A stretch of DNA of 64,000 bases from Pseudoxanthomonas sp. NC8 (GTDB taxonomy: Bacteria > Pseudomonadota > Gammaproteobacteria > Xanthomonadales > Xanthomonadaceae), in assembly GCA_025232375.1 (NCBI GenBank), contig CP060419.1, positions 2,107,001 through 2,171,000 on the forward strand. Reading direction: 5' to 3'. Made by a program: the position numbers and the translations under genes. Positions 2,977 through 61,454 of the stretch are shown here, one piece after another. The notes below the pieces were generated by a model that saw only the letters and a list, made by a program, of their open reading frames with translations, was not told the origin of the DNA and ran no database searches. How positions within the stretch are numbered: position 1 is the stretch's first letter; every line of letters starts with the position of its first letter.

Positions 2977-4173
2977 TTACTCCTTCGCGTCCGGTGCCGC
3001 GATAAGGCGCCGGGTGTGGCGCGCGATCATCAGCTCCTCGTTGGTGGGAATGACCCAGGCGGAAACCCGGCTGGCCGCCGTGCTGATGCGCGCCCCGCCC
3101 TCCCCGTTCGCACCGGCGTCGAACTCCGGGCCCAGCCGTAAGTCGCGTCGCGGCAGACGCGCTCGCGGATTGCGGCCGCGTGCTCGCCGATCCCCCGTGA
3201 ACACCGGGGCATCGATGCCATCCATCGCTGCGGCCAGCGAGCCGAGTTCGCGCCGGATGCGATAGACGAACAGGTCCACGGCCTCGCGCGCACCCGGTGC
3301 ATCGCTCGCAAGCAGCGTGCGCATGTCGCTGGAAATCCCCGATACGCCGAGCAGCCCGGACTCCTTGTAGATGAGGTTCTCGATCGCGCGCGCGTCCATC
3401 GACAGCTCGTCCATCAGGTAGAGCAGCACGCCGGGATCCAGCGTGCCGCTGCGCGTGCCCATCGGCAGCCCATCCACCGCGGTGAGGCCGGTCGTGGCGG
3501 CGACGCTCCTGCCCCCGGCGATGGCGCACATGCTTGCGCCGTTGCCCAGGTGGGCGACCACGACCCGGCCGGCGGCCGCGCGCGGATCAAGTGCCGGCAG
3601 CGCGCTGGCGATGAACTCGTAGGACAGGCCGTGGAATCCGTAGCGGCGCACGCCGCGCCGGGTGATCTCGGCCGGCAGGGCGAAGGCCTGGGCGAGCTCG
3701 GGCTGGCTGCGATGGAACGCGGTGTCGAAGCACGCGACCTGCGGCAACTCCGGCGCCTGCTCCAGCAGCGCGCGGACCGGCGCGAGGTTGTGCGGCTGGT
3801 GCAGCGGCGCCAGCGGCGTCAGCGCCTCCAGTGCCGCGACGACGCCCGCGTCGATGCGGACCGGGGCCGAATACGCGAGCCCGCCATGGACGATCCGGTG
3901 CCCGGCCGCGCACAGCCGGTAGCGGTCGCGATAGCCGCGCAGGAACCCGACCAGGTGCGCGACCGCGCCGCCGTGGCCGATCGACGTGCCCTCCGGCCAA
4001 CGCCGCTCGTCGATCGACGTTCCGGCCGGATCCCTGGCGACGAAGCGCGGCGCGGTGTGGAGGCCTTCGACCTTGCCGCCCAGCAGCGGTTCGGGCGTAT
4101 CCGACCCGGCCGAGAACAGCGAGAACTTGATGCTGGACGAACCGGCGTTGAGCGCGAGGATGACATCGAGCAT
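2977..4173 (-). CDS. ackA: Acetate/propionate kinase
   Basis: Acetokinase interconverting acetate plus ATP and acetyl phosphate. About 398 residues. Seen: N-terminal phosphate loop NAGSSSIKF, the RRYGFHGLSY segment with the catalytic His, HLGNGAS and the GTRSGTLDPG loop. A pair of compensating frame changes lies between about 3125 and 3190: the conserved VFTGGIGEH reads as VFTGD because one G is missing from a run (GATCCCCC on the plus strand), and the original frame returns near GLGPEFDAG. The start ATG 4173 lies 11 bases after the phosphotransacetylase stop. Gene order pta-ackA-fabI suggests overflow or acetate assimilation linked to lipid synthesis. Confidence 0.9.
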   Translation of the reverse strand: MLDVILALNAGSSSIKFSLFSAGSDTPEPLLGGKVEGLHTAPRFVARDPAGTSIDERRWPEGTSIGHGGAVAHLVGFLRGYRDRYRLCAAGHRIVHGGLAYSAPVRIDAGVVAALEALTPLAPLHQPHNLAPVRALLEQAPELPQVACFDTAFHRSQPELAQAFALPAEITRRGVRRYGFHGLSYEFIASALPALDPRAAAGRVVVAHLGNGASMCAIAGGRSVAATTGLTAVDGLPMGTRSGTLDPGVLLYLMDELSMDARAIENLIYKESGLLGVSGISSDMRTLLASDAPGAREAVDLFVYRIRRELGSLAAAMDGIDAPVFTGDRRARGRNPRARLPRRDLRLGPEFDAGANGEGGARISTAASRVSAWVIPTNEELMIARHTRRLIAAPDAKE

Positions 4174-4184
4174 GTGCACCTCCG

Positions 4185-5135
4185 TCAGCCCGCGGCCTTG
4201 TTGCCGTCCGCGCGCCGGGCCCGGGCAACGAGGGCCGCAACGGCACAGGAGGCAAGCCGCGTCATCACCGAGTCGGCACGGCTGGTCAGGATGATCGGCA
4301 CGCGGGCGCCCAGCACGATGCCCGCGGCGTCCGCGCCGGCGAGGAAGGTGAGGCTCTTGGCGAGCATGTTCCCGGCCTCCAGGTCCGGCGCGACCAGAAC
4401 CTGCGCGCGCCCGGCGACGGGTGAATCGATCTTCTTGATCTGCGCGGCCTCGAGGTTGATCGCGTTGTCGAGCGCGAGCGGGCCGTCGAGGATCGCGCCG
4501 GTGATCTGGTGGCGGTCGGCCATCTTGCACAGCGCGGCCGCTTCGATCGTCGAGGGCACCGCCGGGTTGACCGTCTCCATCGCCGACAGGATCGCCACGC
4601 GCACCTCCCCGGGCGCGTCCACCTGCAGGGCATGGGCCAGGTCGATCGCGTTCTGGACGATGTCGAGCTTTTCCGCGAGCCCCGGGGCGATGTTGATCGC
4701 CGCGTCGGTGATGATCAGCGCGTCGTCGTGGCCGGGCACGTCCATCAGGAAGCAATGGCTGATCCGCCGTGCGGTCCGCAGGCCGGTCTCGCGGCGGACC
4801 ACCGCGGCCATCACCTCGTCGGTATGCAGGCTGCCCTTCATCAGCGCCTCGGCCCGGCCCTCGCGCACCAGCGCGACGGCGCGCTCGGCCGAGTCGTGGC
4901 TGTGCGCGGCATCTTCCAGCGGGAGGCCGTCGATCGCGATCCCGTGCTTCGCCGCGACCCCCTCGATCCTCGCCCGCGGGCCGACCAGGACCGGCTGGAT
5001 CAGGCCGAGCGCGGCGGCATCCACCGCGCCACGCAGCGAACTCTCGTCGCAGGGGTGCACGATGGCGGTGGGCATCGGCGGCAGCGTGCGGCAGAAGTCG
5101 ATCAGGCGCTGGTACTTTTCGTGGCGTGGGCTCAT
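4185..5135 (-). CDS. Phosphate acetyl/butyryltransferase
   Basis: Phosphotransacylase of the Pta/Ptb family, moving an acyl group between CoA and phosphate, paired with the acetate kinase that follows 11 bases later. Intact, 316 residues, which matches the short single-domain form without the N-terminal P-loop domain of E. coli Pta. Seen: the family segments EALMKGSLHTDEVMAAV, PGHDDALIITDAAINIAP and ILDGPLALDNAIN. The acyl chain length it prefers cannot be read from sequence; short-chain forms in PHA-producing bacteria are often annotated as phosphate butyryltransferase. Confidence 0.9.
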   Translation of the reverse strand: MSPRHEKYQRLIDFCRTLPPMPTAIVHPCDESSLRGAVDAAALGLIQPVLVGPRARIEGVAAKHGIAIDGLPLEDAAHSHDSAERAVALVREGRAEALMKGSLHTDEVMAAVVRRETGLRTARRISHCFLMDVPGHDDALIITDAAINIAPGLAEKLDIVQNAIDLAHALQVDAPGEVRVAILSAMETVNPAVPSTIEAAALCKMADRHQITGAILDGPLALDNAINLEAAQIKKIDSPVAGRAQVLVAPDLEAGNMLAKSLTFLAGADAAGIVLGARVPIILTSRADSVMTRLASCAVAALVARARRADGNKAAG

Positions 5136-57789: not shown

Positions 57790-59035
57790 ATGGGCGAAGG
57801 ACAGGCCCTGGCCATTCCCTCGCCGCTGCGCGAGCCAGGCTATCGCGTCCTGCTGGGTTACCGGCTGTGCGCGATCCTGTCCTACCAGATCGTCGCGGTC
57901 ACCGTCGGCTGGCACGTCTACGAGCTGACCCGCAATCCGTTCGCGCTGGGCCTGATCGGCCTTGGCCGAGGTCCTGCCGTTCATCGGCATGGCGCTGTTC
58001 GCCGGCTATCTGGTCGACCACCTGCCCAAGCGCCGCCTGGGCGCGGCGGCCTGCACGGGCCTGGCCGCCACCGCGCTGCTGCTCACCCTCGTCTCCAGCG
58101 GCCGCCTCGCCCCCGGCGCGACCTTAGCCGATCTACGCGGCGATCGTGCTGACCGGGCTGGTCCGCTCGTTCCTGACTCCCGTCTACACCGCGCTGTTCG
58201 CCCAAGTGCTGCGCCGCGAGCAGTTCGCGCGCGGGGCAGGCATCGGCAGCATCGCCTTCCAGACCGCACTGGTCTGCGGTCCGGCGCTGGGCGGAGTAAT
58301 GGTCGGCTGGGCCGGCACGACCGCCGCCTACGCGCTGGCCGCGGCACTGGCCCTGGTCGCCGGCGCGGTGCTGCTGGCCCTGCGCGTGTCCGAGCCGCCC
58401 ACCACCGGGCCGCGCGCACCGGTGTTCGGCAGCATCCGCGAAGGCCTGCGCTTCGTCTTCAACACCCAGGTGATGCTCGCCGCGCAGGCACTGGACCTGT
58501 TCGCGGTGCTGTTCGGCGGCGCGATCTCGCTGGCGCCGGCCTTCATCACCGAGATCCTGCACTACGGTCCGGAAGGACTGGGCATCCTGCGCGGCGCACC
58601 GGCACTGGGCGCGGTGGCCGTCGGCATCCTGCTCGCCCGACACCCGCCGGGACGCCACGCCGGCCGCCTGCTGCTGTACGCGGTGGCCGGTTTCGGCCTG
58701 TGCATTATTGGCTTTGGCCTGTCGCGGCACTTCTGGCTGTCGGCGCTGTTCCTGCTGCTGTCGGGAATATGCGACGGCGTGTCGGTGGTGCTGCGCACGA
58801 CGATCATGCAGCTGGTCACCCCCGACGGCATGCGCGGGCGCGTGGCCTCGATCAACGGCATCTTCATCGGCTCGTCCAATGAACTGGGGGCGTTCTACGC
58901 CGGCTCGATGGCACGCCTGCTCGGCCTTGGTGCCGGCGGTGGTGCTCGGCGGCTTCGTCACCCCTGGGCGTGGTCGCCACCACTGCGGCCAAGGCGCCGC
59001 GACTGCGGCGGCTGGACCTGAAGGACCTGCAGTAG
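57790..59035 (+). CDS. MFS transporter
   Basis: About 415 residues, 12 hydrophobic helices. First half: YRVLLGYRLCAILSYQIVAV TVGWHVYELTRNPFALGLIG and an MFS motif A-like loop YLVDHLPKRRLGAA between helices 2 and 3; second half: FITEILHYGPEGLGILRGAP, GICDGVSVVLRTTIMQLVTP and RVASINGIFIGSSNELGAF. The pattern matches the group often annotated as enterobactin exporter-like (EntS/MFS_3). Substrate unknown. Frame breaks at 57960-57965 (CCTTGG), near 58130, at 58925-58930 (CCTTGG) and near 58962. Coupled to sufE. Confidence 0.85.
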
Positions 59036-59067
59036 CCATCTAGATCGACACAACGGAGCTTAGCCCG

Positions 59068-59726
59068 CTAGAACGCATCCAGAAGCACGGCGCACAGGTT
59101 GTGGCTTGCATGTGCCACGACGCATTCGCCCACTCCACGGCGGCGCGCTAGGAAGCACATCACCAGCGAGAACACGAAACTGGCATGCATGTGTGAGTAA
59201 TGCAGTAGAGCAAAGAGCAGTGAGACGAGTATCGCAGCCGCGCCACCGGTCCAACTGCCTTCGAAGACACAGGCAAAAGCCGCGCCCTGAAAATCGCCTC
59301 TTCCAATAGCGGCTGCACGAAGCCCGTGAGTAAGAGAGTGATCGTCAAATACGGATAGAAGCGTCCTGCAGGCAAGGCGGAACGCGCATCGTTGTTGGGG
59401 AACGTTCCATCCATGGCATACGTCACCGCTATCGAGCCTGCGAACAACACCACCCCGATCAACGAGGAAACGAACAATCCATGTCTTCGTGGCCGTCGCA
59501 TCGGAGCCACCATATTGCCGAGCCGCGACCTGTCGAATATCCAAGCGCCGAGAGCCAGCCCTATGGCGAGGATGATGGACGGTGTCACCTGCTTCAGCAG
59601 CCAGAACGCTTGAAGTTCCCGTATCGACTTCGATACTGGGACCATGGCTAGGCCGGTAAGCAGGATCACCCCGAAGAAATGGAGCAGGCTGAGTCCAAGA
59701 TCTAGAACCGCCCTTCTTTCAAGCAT
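59068..59726 (-). CDS. CPBP intramembrane protease (Abi/Rce1-like), frameshifted
   Basis: About 218 residues, strongly hydrophobic (for example LGLSLLHFFGVILLTGLAMV and ITLLLTGFVQPL). The three CPBP motifs are present in order: EEAIFR (residues 142-147), FALLH, and HASHN near the C-terminus, which in Rce1-type enzymes form the catalytic Glu/His site. One base is missing near 59283-59290 (CAGGGCG for an expected CAGGGGCG), splitting motif 1 from the rest. Start ATG 59726 has GGAG six bases upstream. It lies behind the double-glycine-leader peptide gene; in other bacteria such neighbours act in immunity to, or processing of, bacteriocins. Local G+C is low: 30 of 60 bases in 59161-59220. Confidence 0.8.
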
Positions 59727-59771
59727 GTAGCGCTCCAGAGTAGCCCAGCGTCCAGATGGATGCAGTTCCCT

Positions 59772-59801
59772 AAAACGCGCCGCCACATCCGCGGCGGCGC
59801 G
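59772..59801 (-). terminator. Intrinsic terminator between the leader-peptide gene and the CPBP gene
   Basis: Perfect 9-bp GC stem CGCGCCGCC/GGCGGCGCG (59776-59784 with 59793-59801, 8-base loop) followed on the minus strand by TTTT (59772-59775), 17 bases after the small gene's stop. It would end most transcripts of the peptide gene and let few reach the protease gene. Confidence 0.75.
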
Positions 59802-59817
59802 CAAGCGCTTCTTGCCG

Positions 59818-60018
59818 TCAGAAGAAGCTCTTGAACACGGCGATCGCGTTCTCGGCGAGCTGACCGACTCCGTTTGCGATGTCGTTTGCCATATTGCCCA
59901 ACGAACTCTGCGGGCAGTCAATGACATCGTACTCGCGGCTCGGGCCGCAGCCCTCGACCTTCGAAGCTTCCGCACCACCAGAAACGGCGACGAGCTCCAT
60001 CTCATTCAGGTTACGCAT
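59818..60018 (-). CDS. Double-glycine-leader peptide, bacteriocin-like precursor
   Basis: 66 residues. The first 15, MRNLNEMELVAVSGG, match the leader of class II bacteriocins and microcins (hydrophobic residues at set spacing, then Gly-Gly). The predicted core of 51 residues starts AEASKVEGCGPSREYDVIDC, holds two cysteines at 24 and 35 that could form a disulfide, and then a helix-prone stretch SLGNMANDIANGVGQLAENA ending IAVFKSFF. Start ATG 60018 is set by AAGGAG eight bases upstream (60027-60032); a longer frame from 60111 lacks support. No dedicated peptidase-containing ABC transporter is coded in this window. Killing activity is not shown by sequence; a signalling peptide is the alternative. 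Confidence 0.75.
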   Translation of the reverse strand: MRNLNEMELVAVSGGAEASKVEGCGPSREYDVIDCPQSSLGNMANDIANGVGQLAENAIAVFKSFF

Positions 60019-60026
60019 TGCTAACA

Positions 60027-60032
60027 CTCCTT
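60027..60032 (-). promoter_or_regulatory. Strong ribosome binding site of the bacteriocin-like gene
   Basis: AAGGAG, complementary to the 16S tail, eight bases before ATG 60018. It fixes the start within a longer open frame. Upstream, to 60194, no convincing promoter elements were recognised beyond a possible TTGACC. Confidence 0.75.
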
Positions 60033-60194
60033 GTTCAATGGCGCACACCCTGCGCTTGGGACGGGATCGGGTCAAGCGACCGAGCAAACCCGCATCACAT
60101 CTATCGCACACCGAATGATCGCGGGGGATAGCTCCAGACCTGAATTAACTGCCAGAAATTTCCGAACATGGGGAAGATGAGCGGCCGGAAACAG

Positions 60195-60216
60195 AAAACC
60201 CGCCGATTGCGGCGGG
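60195..60216 (-). terminator. Intrinsic terminator of dksA
   Basis: CCCGCCG/CGGCGGG stem (60199-60205 with 60210-60216, loop ATTG) followed on the minus strand by TTTT (60195-60198), 58 bases after the dksA stop. Confidence 0.85.
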
Positions 60217-60274
60217 CGTTCTGGCAGCCATGCGCATGTGCGCATAGCAAAAACATCCATCTGAAACCGTAGGC

Positions 60275-61349
60275 TTACTCGCCCTGCTGCTTCTGCATGT
60301 GCTCCCAGCGCTCCTGCGCGTCGAGGGTGCGCTCGGCAGTCAGGCGCGCGTCGAGGCGCTCCAGGCCGATCTCCTCGCCGGTATCGACGCAATAGCCGTA
60401 GTCGCCGGCTTCCAGCCGCTTGAGCGTGCTGTCGATCTTCCCGATCAGCTTGCGGTAGCGGTCGCGGGTGCGCAGTTCCAGCGAGTTCTCGGTCTCGCGG
60501 GTGGCACGCTCGGCTTCATCGCCGATGTCGCGCACTTCATCCTTGAGGTTCTCGATGGTCTGCTTGGACTCTTCGACTAAGGTCGGCGCGCCACTGCAGC
60601 AGGCGCTGGCGGAAGTACTCCTGCTGCAGCGGGCTCATGTACTCCTCGTCCGTCGAGGGCTTGTAGCCCTTCGGCAGCTGCGGACGACCGGTGGCGTCGT
60701 CGACCTTGTAGTCGACCACGCGGGCCGCGTTACGCGGCGAGGGAGCATCTGTCTTCTTCGATACCACGGCGACAGCTACCTTGCCCTTCGGCTTGGGCGC
60801 ATTCTGGGCCGCGGAAACGACCGCGGCGACGGGTTTGGCGGAATTCTTGGCGGGGGTTTTCGTTACGGGCACGGGCTTCGATATTGCTGGAGCAGCCGCC
60901 GGTACCGGCTTTGCCGGAGCGGGCTTTGCAGGAGCAGGCTTCACGGAAGCGGGCTTTGCAGGAGCAGACTTGGCAGGTACGGGCTTCGCAGGGGCGGATT
61001 TGACGGGAGCAGACTTCGCCGGAGCGGGCTTCGGCGCCGGCTTCGCAGCCGGCCTTAGTCACGGACTTGACGGGAACCTTCTTCGCCGGAGCCTTGGCCG
61101 CCGGAGCGGCCTTACCCCCTTCTGCGGGGCTTTCGCCGCGGGCTTGGAGGTGGACTTGGTCGCCTTGGCCGGGGCCTTGGCCACTTTCTTCGCCGCCGCC
61201 GGCCTGGCGGCAGGCTTGGCCTTGGCCGGAGCGGCCTTCTTCGCCGCGGGCTTGCCCGCGACGGCCTTCTTGGCGACGACCTTCTTGGCGGGAGCGGCGG
61301 GCTTCTTGGCCGGCTTTGCGGCCTTCTTCACGGGTTTCTTGACGGCCAC
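60275..61349 (-). CDS. dksA: DksA with long Lys/Pro/Ala N-terminal extension
   Basis: RNA polymerase secondary-channel regulator, about 357 residues, against 151 in E. coli. Residues 1-200 are low complexity: first KKAAKPAKKPAAPAKK-type, then about nine KPAPA-like pentapeptides coded by 15-bp repeats (60895-61035). The DksA core follows: YMSPLQQEYFRQRLLQWRAD, coiled-coil tip IGDEAERAT (Asp71 and Ala76 of E. coli kept, Asp74 replaced by Glu), SLELRTRDRYRKLIGKID and YGYCVDTGEEIGLERLDARL. Only one of the four zinc cysteines remains (C-x-x-T, T-x-x-A), as in zinc-independent DksA forms. Frame breaks near 61112, 61060 and 60577-60582 (CCTTAG for CCTGG). GTG start. Confidence 0.9.
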
Positions 61350-61454
61350 GTACGAAGGTTCCTCTCTGGTTTTCCCGGTTACCGGGAAAGCGCGCCTTTA
61401 TAGCTCACCCCACCCCACCCGGCAACCTTGTACGCCCCCGGGTATCATGGCCGG

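Follow-up and report, generated by a model that had tools for sequence, protein, structure and literature searches.

A candidate class-II-microcin-like peptide with a CPBP neighbour, inserted beside dksA in Pseudoxanthomonas

Introduction

Does a small gene pair in Pseudoxanthomonas sp. NC8 encode a secreted antibacterial peptide together with the protein that guards its producer? The pair lies in a 64-kb stretch of that genome (the window), in which the initial annotation had described a peptide with a double-glycine (GG) leader and a CPBP membrane protease, and had read the two as a bacteriocin or signal peptide with an immunity or maturation protein. It had asked for a search for both genes in relatives, for a C39 exporter elsewhere in the genome and for other GG leaders, and had made its reading depend on conservation of the peptide frame. 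The locus raises two questions. First, do the peptide and CPBP genes form a real unit, and how did it come to lie where it does? Second, what would the CPBP protein do for the peptide beside it?

Neighbourhoods of this kind have been described before. In 2010, Kjos and colleagues reportedly assigned Abi/CPBP immunity proteins to class II bacteriocins of lactic acid bacteria. According to PMC3316575, microcin S of E. coli G3/10 is specified by mcsS, mcsI, mcsA and mcsB, and mcsI, a gene of the CAAX protease family adjoining mcsS, protects an otherwise sensitive strain, which makes it a self-immunity gene. Validated class II microcins are few, ten and mostly from E. coli going by abstracts of 2022 and 2024, and PMC13174018 predicts class II microcin candidates in Xanthomonas, Pantoea and Erwinia genomes.

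Results

The peptide gene and its product

The peptide gene occupies 59818–60018 on the minus strand and encodes 66 residues, as the initial annotation had claimed; that annotation gave no strand, and the peptide and CPBP genes both lie on the minus strand. The precursor is composed of the leader MRNLNEMELVAVSGG, which ends in SGG, and a 51-residue core, AEASKVEGCGPSREYDVIDCPQSSLGNMANDIANGVGQLAENAIAVFKSFF. The two core cysteines already noticed are Cys24 and Cys35. A Shine-Dalgarno sequence, AAGGAG, was read directly at 60027–60032 (minus strand), eight bases 5′ of the ATG, just as described. A short precursor with a double-glycine leader is what would be expected of a class II microcin. The tail, described earlier as helix-prone, is an amphipathic C-terminal segment: with the tail picked by eye, its 18-residue moment was reached in 2 of 2000 shuffles, for the window peptide and for its relative from strain J31 (see below) alike. 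An AlphaFold2 model of the peptide based on two sequences was poor (mean pLDDT 49.4), with a helix predicted at residues 39–63. Judged from its sequence, such a segment would suit an action on membranes.

No Pfam or NCBIfam model, those for microcins and other bacteriocins included, matched the window peptide above its cut-off. The best curated match was TIGR03949 (lactobin A/cerein 7B), with 13.7 bits against a cut-off of 21.5 and an E value of 0.039, covering residues 3–16 only. The J31 peptide and ten further peptides were also scanned, and none exceeded the cut-off of any curated model. A looser leader pattern gave mainly noise, so a stricter detector was written that demands an ATG, a Shine-Dalgarno sequence and a GG-type leader; since it was written once the window and J31 peptides were known, it is not independent of the two. 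Applied to both strands of the 64 kb, it returned two matches, the window peptide and one with a poor leader.

The CPBP gene and the signals around the pair

The CPBP gene lies downstream of the peptide gene on the same strand and is split over two frames. The first, at about 59286–59726, runs from an ATG chosen by eye (MLERRAVL...) to EEAIFR and matches PF02517 with an E value of 0.0012, below the cut-off. The second, at 59068–59290, contains FALLH, HASHN and the stop codon and matches at 2.2e-6, above the cut-off; it was also recovered by the genome-wide search. The EExxxR, FxxxH and HxxxN motifs of the family are all found with the two pieces scored apart. Of the earlier description the three motifs stand, and the single gene frame does not, given that EEAIFR is read in another frame than FALLH and HASHN; the open frame with the latter two spans 59068–59544, and the shift falls directly past EEAIFR. 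In adjoining the peptide gene, the CPBP gene has the position expected of a class II microcin immunity gene, and it is a candidate for that role. The window genome has a second CPBP gene (C1, 21661–21952; loci L019, L021 and L022), which was matched as two adjoining pieces; no strict GG leader was found in L022.

Between the peptide and CPBP genes, a G+C-rich hairpin followed by UUUU is predicted at 59777–59800 (minus strand), the surrounding 56-base stretch folding at −28.6 kcal/mol with a z score of −2.9. It is possibly an attenuator or a weak terminator; the terminator scan, which demands five T, does not report this hairpin with its four U. That scan placed a terminator-like hairpin 3′ of dksA at 60198–60217 (minus strand), one of two such sites found against 1.2 expected. 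In view of this hairpin, the peptide gene may own a promoter within 60040–60197, a region in which the consensus scan detected nothing promoter-like.

The pair is an insertion

Pfam matches confirmed that the locus sits between an MFS gene (PF07690) and dksA (PF21157, PF01258). dksA was found in all 17 genomes of the genus, the window genome included, and the MFS gene adjoins it at 14 of the 16 congener loci (exceptions L146 and L149). The distance from the dksA stop to the end of the MFS match is 176–715 bases in 12 congener loci, a set that omits L135 for its transposase-like insert and L148, where the script did not locate the dksA end; it is about 1335 bases in the window genome. By tblastn, the peptide was beside dksA in 0 of the 16 congener loci, which extend 1.5 kb past dksA. 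The spot itself varies, since two congeners hold other genes, named by eye, in the same gap. At L135 (genome G013), a transposase-like gene, which we take to be IS1595-like, sits in the 1031-base gap at about 1850–2680 with dksA set to the plus strand, and at L136 (G001) the gap holds a deaminase-like gene.

The pair also stands out by composition, with a G+C content of 0.58 for the peptide gene and 0.57 for the CPBP gene against 0.70 for the whole window, and is the lowest stretch of the 64 kb. The value of about 50 percent given earlier was too low; the contrast with surroundings of roughly 70 percent held. The peptide/CPBP pair is an insertion. Its absence from the dksA region of the 16 congeners and its low G+C agree with the horizontal gain that had been suggested.

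Relatives of the peptide

A protein search of 60 genomes found the window peptide in two, its own and Pseudoxanthomonas sp. J31. Profile searches gave four of 395 family genomes, namely the same two, Lysobacter aestuarii JCM 31130 and a weak match in G080, and two of a draw of 348 order genomes, its own and one spurious match; absence from a genome is not firm in these counts, since at most 15–18 candidates per genome were scored after a loose first pass. The G080 match (L008; E 0.007) lies within a 1571-residue frame and was set aside. A weak profile match in G571 (L025) was looked into, and its frame list contains no GG-leader frame. No relative emerged when contigs were first scanned with the window peptide, and plasmids searched with the J31 peptide yielded a single match, at an E value of 0.4.

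The J31 peptide is 44% identical to the window peptide and retains both cysteines and the block GNxANDIxNG. Directly after its stop codon follows an open 231-residue CPBP frame (PF02517, E 1.1e-10) with EEVFFR, FALLH and HVAYN. Over 61 aligned codons, the two peptide genes differ at 29, 23 and 34 first, second and third positions, a mild third-position excess that makes a weak test of purifying selection, and 13 of the 27 identical residues are encoded by different codons. The peptide frame on whose conservation the initial annotation had staked its reading recurs in J31, where it shares its core and again adjoins a CPBP gene, and the search for the two genes together yielded this pair. The L. 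aestuarii peptide is cut short, ending after DVIDCAQSD. It lies directly behind an HlyD gene that is 62–70% identical, in pieces, to the HlyD of the window genome, and no ABC gene was seen beside it.

GG-peptide/CPBP pairs in the family

PF02517 was sought in 60 genomes, and 89 CPBP places were examined: the full 45 from the 16 congeners, 43 of 88 from genomes beyond the genus and one further. In 393 kb around these places, the strict detector gave 18 matches on the CPBP strand and one on the opposite strand, which is a plausible GG peptide of J31. A strict GG leader lies no more than 900 bp upstream of 11 of the 89 CPBP genes (9 of 45 in the genus and 2 of 44 elsewhere) and downstream of one, counts from which no rate can be drawn outside the genus, where the 43 places were hand-picked with short open frames preferred. 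When the genus CPBP frames were divided post hoc at 265 residues and a G+C of 0.66, none of the 32 at or above both values was linked to a strict leader, as against 9 of the remaining 13. Upstream frames were also read by eye at five loci. This disclosed partners at L085 and L084 (the latter with no usual start codon in view) and, at L077, a partner closer to the CPBP gene, all missed by the strict detector, and nothing at L096 or L097. Further GG-peptide/CPBP pairs thus exist in the family.

At eight of the CPBP loci read, the peptide belongs to a second GG-leader family, MRSLTVDEVEAVSGGELNCSAGFPSGVKCEGKLSDW..., in which six loci have two cysteines at a spacing of 9–12 residues (the window peptide has 10) and L084 and L085 lack the first. 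Of 390 genomes, 15 contain matches to a profile of this family, at 16 places in all; the window genome is not among them, and since the same limit of 15–18 scored candidates per genome applies, absence is again not firm. A linked-type CPBP gene stands beside 12 of the 16, or 5 of 9 for the independent part, the CPBP profile having been built from seven of these loci; it is absent at L159, L163, L164 and L165, the last three of which are weak matches. In G002 (L069, 2332–6562), genes for a second-family peptide, a CPBP protein, a C39 ABC transporter and HlyD stand in a row, and this run is the best candidate for experiments. In G147, the peptide and CPBP genes are followed by a C39 ABC gene cut short. 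Two stretches alike in translation, at about 991–1194 and 3300–3550 of L018, flank what is left of this peptide-CPBP-ABC run, suggesting that a duplication or insertion may have interrupted the ABC gene.

The CPBP proteins were compared by halves. For the second half of the window CPBP, the best matches among the 89 were L076 (41% over 61 residues), L081, L016, L077, L078, L084 and L069. All seven but L016, which lacks its 5′ side, have a GG peptide as partner, that of L084 having been recognised by eye. Linked CPBPs rank higher against this half (p 2e-4 by Mann-Whitney test for the 11 with strict leaders, the sequences being related and not independent). The first half gave weak matches only, headed by unlinked CPBPs, and was not matched by the linked-CPBP profile. 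By BLASTP, the window pieces hardly align with the J31 CPBP, one pair giving E values of 0.12 and 0.004.

The exporter

The window genome has the C39 exporter that had been asked for, and whose absence would have spoken against the initial reading, with three C39 places, one of which has an HlyD-type gene and lies about 260 kb from the locus. This is a nearly full-length C39 ABC and HlyD set read as several frame pieces, 55–85% (ABC) and 65–79% (HlyD) identical to J31; open homologues are present in J31 and G002. The C39 ABC exporter and HlyD adaptor that a class II microcin calls for are both available, in split frames and unlinked to the peptide. Of the 10 genomes checked for C39 places, 9 have at least one, and G005 has none. 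The surroundings of the window-genome exporter yielded no GG-leader gene (L012 gave one poor match on the other strand), where frame errors could hide one. Of the microcin-S-type operon, with peptide, CPBP, HlyD and C39 ABC genes together, the window has only the first two; G002 has all four, with a peptide of the second family.

Discussion

How the pair may work

We favour, with moderate confidence, the reading that the locus is a horizontally gained pair, specifying a peptide similar in kind to class II microcins and a CPBP protein that gives immunity to it. The peptide frame with its homologue, the CPBP linkage that the two share, the exporter genes and the insertion were all observed directly, and the J31 pair, the family pairs, the C39 places and the insertion support the initial idea of a bacteriocin or signal peptide with a CPBP partner. 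Taking leader, exporter and neighbour together, we propose that the leader of the 66-residue precursor would be recognised by a C39-peptidase ABC transporter and cut off after GG, and that export would proceed through the C39 ABC protein and HlyD-type adaptor encoded far from the locus. The product would probably have one disulfide, Cys24–Cys35, and an amphipathic helix, and might act on the envelope of related bacteria. The downstream CPBP membrane protein would then guard the producer, by analogy with McsI and microcin S.

Some of the results weigh against this reading. The CPBP frame is broken in the assembly, and the exporter is unlinked and itself split. The window and J31 CPBPs hardly align although the peptides do, and unlinked CPBPs lead the matches to the first CPBP half. 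Three of the 11 strictly linked CPBPs lack EExxxR. No curated bacteriocin model matched the peptide above its cut-off, the consensus scan showed no promoter-like site upstream of it, and the antibacterial action is a prediction from sequence.

Immunity, maturation or decay?

Might the CPBP protein instead be a protease that processes or matures a secreted signal peptide? In favour of this, the window CPBP retains the catalytic motifs, as do 8 of the 11 strictly linked CPBPs. SilX-SilCR of Streptococcus anginosus, likewise a CAAX/CPBP protease beside bacteriocin genes, would be the model: in PMC9298176, SilX is tied to signal-peptide processing and not to immunity, it is needed for bacteriocin activity, added SilCR restores that activity, and cells that have lost SilX are non-sensitive. 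However, C39 exporters already include a leader peptidase, and in microcin S, which has the same neighbour, immunity was demonstrated (PMC3316575). Moreover, the CPBPs pair with peptides of different cores and three of the 11 (L070, L082 and L086) lack EExxxR, which fits a protective role better than a single cleavage step. We consider maturation rather unlikely, and of the two roles judge immunity the distinctly more probable.

The interruption directly after EEAIFR could also mean that the pair has decayed and lost its function, the peptide gene surviving next to what has become a CPBP pseudogene. Apparent relics occur in relatives, namely L016 of G013, in which the 5′ half of the CPBP gene is missing, and the shortened L. 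aestuarii peptide. Nevertheless, the MFS gene and dksA (57800–61350) are each broken into several frames as well, the open dksA frame has 119 residues in the window versus 183–433 across the 16 congeners, and completeness of the genome is put at 57%. Because its neighbours are broken too and the completeness is so low, an assembly error is the simpler cause of the break in the CPBP gene; the broken frames likely reflect frame errors of assembly, which for the CPBP gene itself is unproven. The peptide frame, though short, is intact, and we regard decay as improbable. A chance pairing, in which a small frame with a look-alike GG leader happens to adjoin an unrelated CPBP gene, is very improbable, for although leader motifs are short and no curated model scored above its cut-off, this is contradicted by the conserved pair in J31, with its 44% identical peptide and the same kind of neighbour, and by the strand bias of the leader matches.

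Known systems and wider meaning

Likened by description, the locus shares with microcin S the GG leader, core cysteines, an adjacent CAAX/CPBP-family gene and a genome with HlyD and C39-type ABC genes. As given in PMC3316575, the MccS precursor has 120 residues and is glycine-rich, whereas the window peptide is much shorter and is not glycine-rich; that paper predicts no transmembrane helices for McsI, unlike the CPBP membrane protein here. The exporter is unlinked in the window, unlike that of microcin S, and linked in G002 for the second peptide family. With class II microcins such as microcin V, the window peptide has the GG leader and two cysteines in common, and candidates from the same bacterial family are already in print; it differs from them in having no microcin-model match and a CPBP gene as neighbour, CPBP going unmentioned in the accessible part of PMC13174018. 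The lactic acid bacteria class II bacteriocins share the combination of GG-leader peptide and CPBP neighbour; what sets the present case apart is the Gram-negative host, the HlyD-dependent export to be expected, and a TIGR03949 match that is sub-threshold and confined to the leader. Pseudoxanthomonas was absent among the literature matches listed; subscription papers were mostly outside the coverage, so earlier print is possible.

The kind of system is already known, and the recurrence of GG-peptide/CPBP cassettes in Lysobacteraceae may be the less expected part. It is conceivable, if somewhat doubtful, that this family holds a large uncatalogued set of GG peptides, many with two cysteines and falling into several core families, each with a co-diverging CPBP, in small cassettes of low G+C that depend on a few common C39/HlyD exporters, and that the CPBP protects by way of the peptide or its membrane receptor. 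If true, such pairs would make the mechanism of CPBP immunity testable in a Gram-negative bacterium, and the recurrent pair and the complete G002 gene run offer tractable candidates for telling proteolysis from another route of protection.

Further peptides of possible interest were seen in the genus. In a Pseudoxanthomonas sp., L017 has a sub-threshold match to MccV (PF17508, E 1.8e-4) at 4123–4401. In J31, five short GG-leader peptides, several of them proline-rich, stand in tandem at 5041–6155 of L070. They adjoin a pair of C39 ABC and HlyD genes, and a CPBP-like gene lies at 4167–4619.
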